Source: Gulosibacter sp. 10 | GTDB taxonomy: Bacteria > Actinomycetota > Actinomycetes > Actinomycetales > Microbacteriaceae | DNA length: 50,303 bases | Direction: 5' to 3' | NCBI RefSeq assembly: GCF_900163695.1 | Contig: NZ_FUIC01000004.1 | Span: 1-50,303 of the forward strand | Shown: positions 16,832 to 24,882 of the stretch, one piece after another | How positions within the stretch are numbered: the stretch's first letter is position 1 | How the letters are laid out: each line of letters opens with the position of its first letter | The notes under the pieces: generated by a model | The model's database searches: none | What the model saw: the letters and a program-made list of their open reading frames with translations, nothing else | Told to the model about the DNA's origin: nothing | Position numbers and translations under genes: made by a program

Positions 16832-17509
16832 ATGTCGGTTACCTCCCTGTCGACGAGCAATCAGAACTACCTGAAGGCCATCTGGAGCCTCCAGGAGTGG
16901 TCCGACGAACCCGTCACCCCCACCACGCTCGCCGCCCGGGTCGGCGTGCGGCTCTCGACCGCTTCGGATGCGGTCCGCAAGCTCACCGATCAGGGCTACC
17001 TCGAGCACGCGCCCTACGGCGCGGTCACGCTCACCGAGCAGGGGCGCGCCTACGCGGTCGCGATGGTGCGCCGGCACCGCCTCATCGAGTCCTTCCTCGT
17101 CGAGTCCCTCGGCTACCGGTGGGACCAGGTGCACGACGAGGCGGAGACCCTCGAGCACGCCGCCTCGGACTTCATGATCGAGCGCATCGACGAGCTGCTC
17201 GGCCACCCCGAGCGCGATCCCCATGGCGATCCGATCCCGCGCGCCGACGGCACGGTGGCGAAGCCCGACGCGGTTCGCCTCGCCGAGCTCTCGCCGGGCC
17301 GGCGCGGCACGGTCGAGCGCTTCGCCGACGACGACCCCGAGCTGCTGCAGTTCTTCGCCGGCCACGGCATCGGCGTGGGCACCGTGCTCGAGGTGCGGGC
17401 CGGCGCGCCGTATTCGGATGCCGTCGGGCTCGTGTTCGACGGCCGCGAGGAGCCGCTCCCCCTCGGGCGCTCGGCCACCGGCGCCGTGTGGGTCACGCCT
17501 CGGCCGTAG
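16832..17509 (+). CDS. mntR: MntR-like (DtxR family) manganese-dependent regulator
   Basis: A 225-residue regulator with an N-terminal winged helix (GVRLSTASDAVRKLTDQGYLEH, about 36-57 in two parts), a metal-binding dimer domain and a C-terminal FeoA/SH3-like domain. The metal region reads RRHRLIESFLVE (about 80-91) and VHDEAETLEHAASDF. The residue matching DtxR Cys102 is Glu, as in MntR, which favours Mn2+ over Fe2+. The first ligand position is Asn12 in NQNYLK, where MntR proteins have Asp and DtxR has Met; this is unusual. A TAGCCT box lies 6 bases before the ATG, suggesting a leaderless message. The convergent ABC importer supports the Mn role. Confidence 0.88.
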   Translation: MSVTSLSTSNQNYLKAIWSLQEWSDEPVTPTTLAARVGVRLSTASDAVRKLTDQGYLEHAPYGAVTLTEQGRAYAVAMVRRHRLIESFLVESLGYRWDQVHDEAETLEHAASDFMIERIDELLGHPERDPHGDPIPRADGTVAKPDAVRLAELSPGRRGTVERFADDDPELLQFFAGHGIGVGTVLEVRAGAPYSDAVGLVFDGREEPLPLGRSATGAVWVTPRP

Positions 17510-18398
17510 CCCGCACCGCCTCTGCGAGGGAGGGCTCCCGGGACGCCGAGCGCCTGCGGCCCTGCGCGATGCGGTTCGCGAGGAGCACCACGACGAACAC
17601 GGCGCCGTAGAACACCGCCATCCCGGCGCTGGTCGCGGCGTTGAGCGCGTAGGCCATCCAGAAGCCGGCGAGGGCCCCGCCGGCGGCGATCGCCGCGGTG
17701 AGCACGAGCATCGTCGAGAGCCGGCTGCTGAGCAGGTACGCCGTCGCCGGCGGGACGATCATCAGCGCGATCACGAGGATGGCTCCGGCCGCGTTGAACG
17801 CCGCGGTGACGGTGAGCGAGACCATGAACATGAACGCCGTGTTCAGCGCACCCGAGCGGATGCCGATGCTCTCCGCGAACTGCGGGTCGAAGGTGGTGAC
17901 CTTGAGCCTGGGGTAACACACCGCGAGGAAGGCGATGTCGAGCAGCAGGACGCCGAGCATGACGTAGAGGTACTCGGGTCCGATGGACACGCCGCCCACG
18001 GACAGCTGCCGGAAGGCCGCGAGATTGAGGTCGCCCACGAGCACGGCGTGCGTGTCGAGGTGCACGTTCGCGAAGTTCAGGGTGACGAGGATGACGCCGA
18101 TGCTGAACAGCGCCGGGAAGATGAGCCCCTGCGGCGCATCCCCGGTGATGAGGCCGGTGCGGCCCAGCCATTCGGCGCCGAGCACGACGACCAGGCCGGC
18201 GAGCGCCGCGCCGATGATGAGCAGCGGCGAGTCGAGGTTCCGGGTGAAGAAGTAGCCGACCACGATGCCCGGCAGCACCGCGTGGCTGATCGCGTCCACG
18301 AGCATCGAGCTCTTGCGGAGCACGACGAACGCGCCCGGGAGCGCGCAGGCGAGCGCGGTGACGACGGCGAGCAGCGAGGTGCCGAGGAGGAAGCTCAT
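17493..18398 (-). CDS. Metal ABC transporter permease (second)
   Basis: A 301-residue ABC-3 family permease for Mn2+/Fe2+/Zn2+ import with about 8-9 membrane segments. LPGAFVVLRKSSMLVDAISHAVLPGIVVGYF near the N-terminus (in two stretches, about 20-50) is the conserved region of this family. VPPATAYLLS and a Gly-rich segment near the C-terminus are also typical. The C-terminal tail is charged and rich in Arg and Ala. The ATG lies in an ATGA overlap with the upstream permease. Its 3' end overlaps the 3' end of the convergent mntR gene by 17 bases. Confidence 0.93.
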   Translation of the reverse strand: MSFLLGTSLLAVVTALACALPGAFVVLRKSSMLVDAISHAVLPGIVVGYFFTRNLDSPLLIIGAALAGLVVVLGAEWLGRTGLITGDAPQGLIFPALFSIGVILVTLNFANVHLDTHAVLVGDLNLAAFRQLSVGGVSIGPEYLYVMLGVLLLDIAFLAVCYPRLKVTTFDPQFAESIGIRSGALNTAFMFMVSLTVTAAFNAAGAILVIALMIVPPATAYLLSSRLSTMLVLTAAIAAGGALAGFWMAYALNAATSAGMAVFYGAVFVVVLLANRIAQGRRRSASREPSLAEAVRATAEA

Positions 18399-23308: not shown

Positions 23309-23860
23309 ATGCGGAGCGATCAACGGCCGACGGCGCGTCGGGGCGCGGAGGAGACGAGCGGGGGCCGGACCCCGGTCGAGTTCCGGGCGGTGGCGGAGTG
23401 CGGCTCCGCCGACCTCGTGTACTTCTCGAGCGTCTCCGAGAACACCCGACGATTCGTCGAACGACTCGAGCGGCCGGCCCTGCGCATCCCGCTGCGCCCG
23501 CGCCTCGAAGGCATGATCCGCGTCGATCGCCCGTACGTGCTCGTCGTCCCGACCTACGGGGGCGGCGCGCCCTCGGGCGCCGTGCCGAAGCAGGTGAAGA
23601 CCTTCCTCAACGACCCCGGGAACCGTCGCCTCCTGCGCGGGGTCATCACCGCGGGGAACACGAACTTCGGCGAGCACTACTGCCTCGCTGGCCCCGTCAT
23701 CGCCCAGAAGTGCGGCGTGCCCGAGCTCTACCGCTTCGAGCTGCTCGGCACCGAGCGAGACGTCCGCGCCGTCGACGCGGGCCTCGACCGCTTCTGGACC
23801 GAGCTCGAGGCCGCAACCGCTTCACCCATCCGCCGTCATCACGAAAGAGAGCTTCGATGA
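23309..23860 (+). CDS. nrdI: NrdI flavodoxin-like protein
   Basis: Flavin protein that supplies the oxidant used to activate NrdF-type R2 subunits. The 183-residue protein shows the FMN loop [16 protein letters not shown] (about 38-53), [18 protein letters not shown] (about 77-94) and [21 protein letters not shown] (in two parts, about 111-131), all standard for NrdI. It has about 35 extra N-terminal residues compared with usual NrdI. The frame is open up to 23219, but I start at the ATG at 23309, which follows GGGAG; the longer version would begin in A+T-rich DNA without such a site. The stop overlaps the nrdF ATG (ATGA). No nrdE or nrdH is in the window. Confidence 0.92.
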
Positions 23861-24882
23861 CCGAAACCCGAGCAGACCGCCCGATCGCCGCGTACTCGGC
23901 TACCCCGCCCGCCTACCGGCGCGATCCCGCGGTGCGATTGCGCCCCGTCAACTGGAACCGCGTGGAGGACGAGAAGGACCTCGAGGTCTGGAACCGCCTC
24001 ACCGCGAACTTCTGGCTGCCCGAGAAGGTGCCGCTGTCCAACGACCTCGCCGCCTGGCAGCAGCTGCGCGCCGAGGAGCGGACGCTCACGATGCGCGTCT
24101 TCACCGGGCTGACCATGCTCGACACCGTGCAGGCCACCGTCGGCGAGATCTGCCAGATCCAGGACGCCCGCACCGAGCACGAGGAGGCCGTCTACACGAA
24201 CATCGCCTTCATGCAGTCGGTGCACGCCCGCTCCTACTCCTCGGTGTTCTCCACCCTGACCAGCACCCCGGAGATCGACGACGCCTACCGCTGGGCGGTC
24301 GAGAACGATCTGCTGCAGGAGCGCGCCAAGCGGGTCCTGCAGCACTACTACGGCGAGGACCCCCTCAAACGCAAGGTCTCCTCGACCCTGCTCTCCTCCC
24401 TGCTGCTCTACGCCGGGTTCTACCTGCCGCTGCACTTCTCGGTACACGCCACGCTGACGAACACGGCGGACATGATCCGCCTCATCCTGCGCGACAAGGC
24501 CGTGCACGGCTACTACTCCGGCTACAAATACCAGCGCGGGCTCGAGGGATGCTCCGCGGAGCGCCGGGAGGAGATGCGCGAGTTCACCTTCGCGCTGCTC
24601 GAGGAGCTGTACGCCCTGGAACTCGCGTACTCCGGCGAGCTCTACCGGCCGCTCGGGCTCATGGACGACGTCGCCGTGTTCGTCCGCTACAACGCGAACA
24701 AGGCGCTCATGAACCTCGGCTACCCGTCGCGGTTTCCGGCCGACCAGACCGAGGTGAATCCCGAGATCCTCGCCGCGCTCGCGCCCGGCGCGGACGAGAA
24801 CCACGACTTCTTCTCGGGCTCCGGCTCCTCGTACGTCATCGGCAAGGCCGAGGATACCGCCGACGGGGACTGGGACTTCTGA
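23857..24882 (+). CDS. nrdF: Class Ie (metal-free, QSK-type) ribonucleotide reductase R2 subunit
   Basis: A 341-residue R2 subunit closely resembling actinobacterial NrdF, including [19 protein letters not shown] (32-49) and the C-terminal tail ending DWDF that docks to R1. Of the six metal ligands of class Ib NrdF, Asp89, His123 and His217 are kept, but the three Glu are replaced: Gln120 in [11 protein letters not shown], Ser180 in [11 protein letters not shown] and Lys214 in RDKAVHGYY. The radical Tyr is present as Tyr127. This Gln/Ser/Lys set defines the QSK variant of class Ie R2 proteins, in which a modified Tyr (DOPA) radical made with NrdI replaces the metal cofactor. Codons 24214-24216, 24394-24396 and 24496-24498 were checked. 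Coupled to nrdI by ATGA. The R1 partner must lie elsewhere. Confidence 0.95.

Follow-up and report, generated by a model that had tools for sequence, protein, structure and literature searches.

A candidate manganese-sparing gene block in Gulosibacter sp. 10 combines an MntR-family regulator with a PEP carboxykinase homolog and a class Ie ribonucleotide reductase subunit, both altered at metal-ligand positions

Introduction

The replacement of manganese-dependent enzymes by paralogs that spare the metal has a parallel in the zinc-sparing switches. Here, we describe a candidate locus of this kind on a 50,303-base contig of Gulosibacter sp. 10 (Microbacteriaceae; NZ_FUIC01000004.1 of assembly GCF_900163695.1), analyzed over its whole length and hereafter called the window, in which an MntR-like regulator gene, a four-gene metal importer, a gene for a homolog of GTP-dependent phosphoenolpyruvate carboxykinase (PEPCK) that we term PCKv, and the ribonucleotide reductase (RNR) genes nrdI and nrdF lie side by side. 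In Streptococcus pyogenes, MtsR, a DtxR-family regulator responding to manganese and iron, represses the mtsABC importer and the class Ie nrdF.2IE.2 genes but not the other nrd genes (PMC6593403, PMC8463856). The window resembles this system in that a DtxR-family regulator accompanies an ABC importer for metal and an RNR of the metal-free class Ie; whereas the S. pyogenes R2e protein is of the VPK kind (PMC11846895), that of the window is of the QSK type and comes from Actinomycetota, and whereas the accessible portions of the S. pyogenes papers mention no PEPCK and describe no single block, the window genes are physically linked and paired with PCKv. Because MtsR control has been published, the class Ie RNR half of the arrangement thus has a precedent, in another phylum and for a VPK-type enzyme. 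An earlier, sequence-only reading of this DNA knew of no manganese unit pairing the two enzymes; this stands for the PEPCK pairing, for which we found no precedent, but class Ie RNR under a manganese/iron regulator was already known in Streptococcus.

The Q-S-K substitution itself is known from Gardnerella vaginalis, whose class Ie subunit is metal-free, carries a Tyr hydroxylated to DOPA, and requires NrdI, and for which nrdIF and nrdIEF gene orders have been reported (PMC11846895). As regards gene neighborhoods, section 6 of that paper gives nrd gene order only, and the term "MntR" has 0 occurrences in its main text, whereas the window links a QSK subunit with mntR. Manganese enzymes are also replaced or spared under manganese starvation in Staphylococcus aureus (PMC12421985, PMC6684088, PMC9973326); the enzymes concerned there are phosphoglycerate mutase, aldolase, and superoxide dismutase, the sparing response is under RsaC, and "PEPCK" and "pckA" have 0 occurrences in the available text of PMC12421985. 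A PEPCK within a manganese regulon, or one devoid of its transition-metal ligands, was not found in the open full-text literature, which is weak as evidence of absence since most subscription papers lie outside it.

Results

Five adjoining units with no unrelated gene between them, as previously claimed, were recovered from open reading frames (ORFs) and Pfam matches, namely mntR, the four-gene importer (17493-21014, minus strand; two ABC-3 permeases, an ATPase, and a ZnuA/TroA-type binding protein), the PEPCK homolog, nrdI, and nrdF:

16832..17509, plus strand: mntR, DtxR/MntR-family regulator with FeoA domain, 225 aa (Pfam)
17493..18398, minus strand: importer permease 2, ABC-3 (PF00950; start taken from the ORF)
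18395..19330, minus strand: importer permease 1, ABC-3 (PF00950; start taken from the ORF)
19327..20073, minus strand: importer ATPase (PF00005; best NCBIfam model NF053840 MntA, below cut-off)
20070..21014, minus strand: metal-binding protein of TroA/ZnuA type with His-His-His-Asp ligands by alignment (PF01297; best PDB relatives 3mfq and 1toa)
21169..23007, minus strand: PCKv, assigned by alignment to a GTP-PEPCK subfamily without two ligands of the manganese site, 612 aa, no internal stop (Pfam PEPCK_GTP)
23309..23860, plus strand: nrdI flavoprotein (PF07972; NCBIfam TIGR00333 above cut-off)
23857..24882, plus strand: nrdF, predicted class Ie R2 of Q-S-K type (Pfam; best PDB relatives 8rag/8rah)

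The genome comprises 3.65 Mb in 55 contigs, of which the window is one whole contig (C24). A search for the canonical counterparts, a check that the earlier reading had proposed, came out in its favor and found both outside the window. A canonical GTP-PEPCK, 44% identical to PCKv and with the ...GKKCFAL... and ...LAEH... motifs, is encoded on contig C8. NrdF is encoded twice more: on C25, where an intact nrdE precedes another QSK copy (87%), and on C43, where the copy is of class Ib and retains every Glu ligand. Class Ib NrdEF is encoded elsewhere in the genome. The earlier claim that both enzymes of the block have been stripped of metal-ligand residues was borne out, with Ile and Gln for Lys and His in the PEPCK homolog and Q-S-K for Glu in NrdF.

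PCKv carries the PEPCK_N and PEPCK_GTP Pfam domains and matches NCBIfam NF003253, all above cut-off, and it shares with GTP-PEPCKs such as Mycobacterium tuberculosis Pck its length, the P-loop GKTN, most of the nucleotide pocket, and the equivalents of Arg87, Tyr235, and Arg405. The difference lies at metal site 1 (M1), judged here from alignments with residues given in what we take to be the vertebrate numbering: Ile221 and Gln242 of the window protein stand where PDB chain 5i67, presumably M. tuberculosis Pck, has the M1 Lys and His (Lys244 and His264). Among 81 PCKv proteins (the window and the 80 loci of a named scan, the latter being the best 80 of 344 GTDB-collection stretches encoding a relative), Ile, Ala, and Gln occupy positions 244, 245, and 264 without exception, and Ile and Gln were also constant in the 30 variants first collected. 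The M1 ligand set of GTP-PEPCK, Lys244, His264, and Asp311, is thus reduced to its Asp, which is retained in 81/81, as are Arg87, Tyr235, Lys243, Ser286, Lys290, Thr291, Asn292, Asp310, Arg405, Phe517, and Asn533; the segment before residue 200 is shortened. On these alignments PCKv is a protein with the core nucleotide and substrate residues kept and two M1 ligands lost, and it is to be filed as an actinobacterial GTP-PEPCK subfamily without the canonical metal site rather than as an ordinary PEPCK. PCKv matched chain 4r43 at nearly the 5i67 score; 4r43 is named as M. tuberculosis Pck in PMC4370629, where site 1 is predicted from Asp, Lys, and His249, site 2 alone is filled in the crystal, and efficient catalysis requires manganese together with magnesium.

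PCKv was present in 9/299 family genomes, 20/396 order genomes, and 3/396 phylum genomes, the Gulosibacter genome being counted each time. A canonical protein was used to test 59 PCKv genomes (29 plus 30, the 30 consisting of 9 linked to genes of the block and 21 of the 68 unlinked), and in 24 of them PCKv was the sole GTP-PEPCK, two of the 24 (G310 and G327) being less than 90% complete; ATP-PEPCK gave no match in these 24, whereas 5/14 control genomes, Escherichia coli and Bacillus subtilis among them, were matched. PCKv is therefore probably a working PEPCK, and we put a catalytically active PEPCK well above an even chance; that it would be active without a transition metal at M1 is put only slightly above an even chance. 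Decay into a pseudoenzyme was rejected as the leading reading because the listed genomes have no internal stop in PCKv and five PCKv pairs gave low NG86 dN/dS ratios (~0.06-0.14, the pair of the window and L094 being near synonymous saturation).

A further explanation is that PCKv is co-regulated with the manganese genes but no longer acts as a PEPCK, catalyzing another GTP-dependent reaction or serving as a sensor protein. Besides the loss of two of the three M1 ligands, four further positions differ, namely Cys245 to Ala and Cys288 to Ser in 81/81, residue 406, which is Thr or Ala, and Phe530 to Tyr in 80/81, with Phe525 differing in 6 and Trp527 in 1 of the 81, so that a changed reaction is possible. 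The Tyr at 530 is also found in a working psychrophilic PEPCK (PMC12529880). PCKv is 37-41% identical to the canonical enzyme of the genome in the wider alignment, with long branches between the two groups, and a PEPCK-like match is absent from 35/299 family genomes, which makes PEPCK dispensable in the family and the sole-PEPCK argument indirect. Set against this are the twelve substrate, nucleotide, and P-loop positions invariant in 81/81 and the 24 genomes with neither another GTP-PEPCK nor an ATP-PEPCK, and we consider a non-PEPCK role unlikely, if the most serious of the alternatives.

The order of genes recurs in relatives, as the earlier reading had proposed to check. In the family sample, PCKv adjoins a divergent nrdI in 9/9 genomes (nrdI of L035 being cut by a contig end), and the stretches include, on the other side of PCKv, an MntR homolog in 7/9 and a metal importer in 5/9, the exceptions being L036 and L037 without either and L040 and L042 with MntR and no importer. 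In the order sample, PCKv is linked to nrdI-nrdE-nrdF in G366 and G550, and G522, cut by a contig end, retains a flavin-reductase neighbor; no gene of the block was near PCKv in the other 16 order-sample cases nor in the 2 phylum-sample cases. The named scan found MntR, NrdI, or NrdF near PCKv in 12/80 loci, including Schaalia, Corynebacterium, Yaniella, Leucobacter, and Gulosibacter, three of the 12 (L146, L159, and L166) being the family-sample genomes G293, G056, and G136; four Actinomycetaceae among the 12 have MntR adjoining PCKv and no nrd gene in the stretch. PCKv and a QSK NrdF co-occur in 5 order-sample genomes, the 395 genomes other than that of Gulosibacter having 19 carriers of the former and 23 of the latter (Fisher p = 0.003, which presumes that both scans drew the same genomes and ignores kinship).

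These counts are not all independent, because PCKv copies from separate genera and families can be nearly identical (98-100% identity among L035, L038, L039, and L041; 99% among L072, L074, and L076), which shows recent transfer. The same copies would fit a horizontally spread nrd cassette with hitch-hiking neighbors, in which PCKv would stand outside the response; this we find improbable, since the four Actinomycetaceae carry PCKv beside MntR with no nrd gene and with the predicted regulatory site in the promoter of PCKv itself, and the linked PCKv copies are spread over several branches of the tree. In that quick tree (74 rows, SH-aLRT support only; seven sequences that were near-copies or fragments were omitted, as was roughly every other unlinked row), unlinked PCKv proteins group in one clade (support 99) to which the linked ones do not belong, and canonical PEPCK is distant; with the canonical sequences as outgroup, the topology suggests an older linked form and a later unlinked use. 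Plasmid-borne PCKv was not found by tblastn among 72,556 plasmid records, the 58 records at E <=1e-50 all being <60% identical. In two Nocardioides and Phycicoccus elongatus (G1084, G1086, and G1091; loci L125, L129, and L164), canonical and variant PEPCK genes are divergent and ~0.6-7 kb apart, an arrangement for which the manganese block gives no explanation.

The window NrdF has Gln, Ser, and Lys at the places of Glu in the class Ib NrdF of the genome. QSK was found in 39/40 related NrdF loci (9 rows were read by eye, and near-copies as well as the genome's own C25 locus, twice, are included), the class Ib locus being EEE in the alignment. The best PDB relatives, 8rag and 8rah, are structures listed in the G. 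vaginalis R2e-QSK paper (PMC11846895). By its residues, the window NrdF is a class Ie R2 of Q-S-K type, to which metal-free function is assigned on that basis. No nrdE was seen beside the window nrdI-nrdF; in the second QSK operon of the genome, on C25, the nrdI frame has 88 codons only and lacks its middle (L233:9718-9984), next to intact nrdE and nrdF, so that the two QSK loci look complementary, NrdI being supplied by the window and NrdE by C25. Upstream of nrdI lies a further candidate element, read from the sequence and with similar sequences upstream of nrdI in relatives:

23270..23286, no strand assigned: NrdR-box-like sequence CACAACATCTTGTGGTG

If this is an NrdR box, as we presume from the consensus, nrdI-nrdF may be under an additional control linked to dNTPs. 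Downstream of nrdF-QSK or beside PCKv, a gene resembling flavin reductases (188 aa in L004) is present in L036, L038-L042, L072, L074, L076, L114, L135, L212, L216, L217, L221, and L233; its product might be a reductant of NrdI.

With regard to regulation, the earlier reading had pointed to a 20-bp dyad common to the importer promoter and the PCKv/nrdI gap. The shared 20-mer, GACGTAGTTGCAANNTTGTC, is real, its two copies (21110-21129 and 23187-23206) being the only matches with <=3 mismatches, whether the window or all 3.65 Mb of the genome are searched, with 0 in 100 shuffles of the window. Across genera, however, it is an overlapping dyad in a shifted frame that is conserved, and the phase beginning at 21110 and 23187 was displaced by the frame AACTACG-N6-CGTAGTT. 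An exact copy of this motif stands in the PCKv promoter in Actinomyces mediterranea, Schaalia, and Corynebacterium, a copy with one mismatch in Gleimia and an Actinomycetaceae metagenome-assembled genome, and one with two mismatches in Actinomyces sp. B33. It is the likely operator, at which binding of MntR is predicted. The elements in the window, none with a strand assigned, are as follows:

23176..23195: strong predicted MntR operator, AACTTCG-GCATGA-CGTAGTT, common to divergent PCKv and nrdI-nrdF; rank 1 in the window
21099..21118: moderate predicted MntR operator of the importer, ATGTTTG-TTGAGA-CGTAGTT; rank 2 of 50,284 with both matrices
16790..16809: weak predicted MntR operator, GACTACG-GCGGGC-CGAACTC, whose end lies 22 bp upstream of mntR; rank 3 (7-site) or 5 (6-site) of 50,284
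21110..21129: importer copy of the shared 20-mer, overlapping the predicted operator
23187..23206: PCKv/nrdI copy of the shared 20-mer, a sequence match

Nowhere in the genome but at 23176 is AACTWCG-N6-CGWAGTT matched without mismatch. At <=1 mismatch, 15 genomes gave a single match in the PCKv promoter in 5 (all those named above but Actinomyces sp. B33), in the PCKv/nrdI gap (23176) in the Gulosibacter genome, and none in 9, a reversed-pattern control giving 0-4 matches per genome in the same 15; as the pattern was derived from those PCKv promoters, only its uniqueness and the window match are informative. At <=3 mismatches, matches genome-wide are at background level (389 vs 383 for the reversed control). 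Two matrices were built from sites that all lie outside the Gulosibacter genome, one of 7 sites (one of them a nrdI promoter) and one of 6 PCKv-only sites, and these ranked the PCKv/nrdI gap, importer, and mntR promoters 1, 2, and 3 (7-site) or 1, 2, and 5 (6-site) in the window, so that with the 6-site matrix the top three positions hold 2/3 of the promoters; with the latter, rank 1 fell before nrdI in 6/10 linked loci. Upstream of PCKv, the site ranked first in 13/16 linked non-training loci (from a linked set of 22, whose 6 training loci, all rank 1, are excluded), or 6/9 after hand-merging of near-copies, with L037, L076, and L138 failing.

The site is not confined to loci with PCKv. We scored another 21 QSK loci, of which 18 come from genomes without a reported PCKv and some are near-copies (L213-L215, L227-L228, and L231-L232); it was best in the whole stretch and stood before nrdI in 11; half-site shuffles gave a mean of 2.0/21 in 600 (one, whose matrix was almost the real one, reached 11) and of 2.1 in 200 (highest 15), and at 9/21 loci the stretch includes MntR, a metal importer, or both. 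The second QSK operon of the genome carries a site (C25:119609, <=2 mismatches), although many other genome positions match equally loosely. The sole class Ib operon scored, that of the genome, has none (rank 21), and the canonical PEPCK promoter of the genome scores 5.6 vs 23.2 at 23176, 5.6 still being the best in its 4.7-kb piece. In the PCKv/nrdI gaps of L036-L038, L040, L042, L074, and L076, some two helical turns separate the operator from another conserved element, GGCGTGTCGTA, perhaps a second, overlapping site.

The metal to which the regulator responds bears on the other main alternative, that it senses iron or zinc and that the block is an iron- or zinc-starvation response. The MntR protein has the iron-dependent-repressor N and C domains (PF01325 and PF02742) and FeoA, all above cut-offs, and the DtxR family includes iron sensors; its best NCBIfam model is nonetheless NF047407 MntR (160 bits against a cut-off of 350), which ranks above DtxR, both being below cut-off, and its best PDB relative is 5zr4, which we take to be M. 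tuberculosis MntR. In the alignment with 5zr4, ...DEAETLEHAASD... of the window protein falls opposite DEAEVLEHAVSD; the first Glu of ETLEH presumably stands at the place of the DtxR Cys102 ligand. The TroA/ZnuA-like binding protein speaks for the alternative, its His-His-His-Asp set, aligned with TroA, being zinc/manganese-ambiguous and departing from the His-His-Glu-Asp set that we take to be of manganese type, so that the importer is less clearly a manganese importer than the earlier reading implied. On the other hand, in the importers of six related loci the third His gives way to Glu where the sequence extends that far, which yields the presumed manganese set, and both class Ib NrdF and PEPCK, for which the block would substitute, use manganese. 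We hold iron or zinc sensing to be distinctly unlikely.

Outside the block, the region 37391-42756 of the window has a lower G+C content (59-62% in 2-kb bins 38001-42000 vs 70% overall) and, judged by eye, contains two large genes resembling Res and Mod of a type III restriction-modification system, near which (42908-45553) lies a gene for a large P-type cation-transporting ATPase, also judged by eye.

Discussion

Our analyses favor, with reasonable though not strong confidence, the reading of the block as a manganese-starvation regulon that spares the metal, and its control by MntR is the most secure part, which we consider likely. In the proposed mechanism, MntR would hold AACTACG-N6-CGTAGTT at its own promoter, at that of the importer, and at the shared PCKv/nrdI promoter as long as manganese is present. 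When manganese falls, MntR would release the DNA, and metal uptake via the importer would increase; dNTP synthesis would pass to the metal-free NrdI-NrdF(QSK), with NrdE encoded elsewhere, and the interconversion of phosphoenolpyruvate and oxaloacetate to PCKv, which keeps the Mg-nucleotide site and the substrate residues with the Lys and His of M1 lost. Here we infer MntR binding, the manganese signal, and PCKv activity without manganese at M1; the gene set, the residues, the recurrent linkage, the distribution of sites, and the canonical versions elsewhere are read from the DNA.

This reading, which is also that of the earlier sequence-only work, gains from the recurrent linkage, the canonical copies elsewhere, and a cross-genus operator that falls on the right promoters, and it loses some ground with the importer. 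Several further findings weigh against it. No gene of the block lies near PCKv in 68/80 named loci, some on short contigs (a 23% NrdE-like match in L157 was not taken as a gene of the block), and unlinked PCKv loci have the site at rank 1 in 2/86 only; as most unlinked PCKv promoters lack the site, MntR control is not subfamily-wide. The site was not at rank 1 in 10/21 further QSK loci, and five of these (L216, L217, L220, L227, and L228) do have MntR and/or an importer in the stretch. Of the sites in the window, those of mntR and the importer are degenerate, and the window promoters had already been inspected before the dyad frame was fixed. In addition, PCKv is the only PEPCK of G550, one of the linked genomes, which is a poor fit to a pure back-up role.

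A metal-sparing regulon is a known kind of system, and the PCKv within it is possibly a new kind of PEPCK active site. More broadly, and tentatively, as we give it somewhat less than an even chance, actinobacteria may have a PEPCK subfamily that dispenses with the active-site transition metal of characterized PEPCKs and works with Mg-GTP alone. In some lineages it would be the sole PEPCK, serving gluconeogenesis or anaplerosis, and in others it would be placed under MntR and form, with metal-free class Ie RNR, a transferable module for independence from manganese. The conditions under which class Ie RNR is used were named as not understood in a 2021 review (PMC8463856), and the block proposes a metal condition for the use of the actinobacterial enzyme. 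As a natural PEPCK without two of its M1 ligands, PCKv would test the need for that manganese ion in the chemistry, and the block as a whole would provide a genetically linked example of manganese-sparing paralog replacement.

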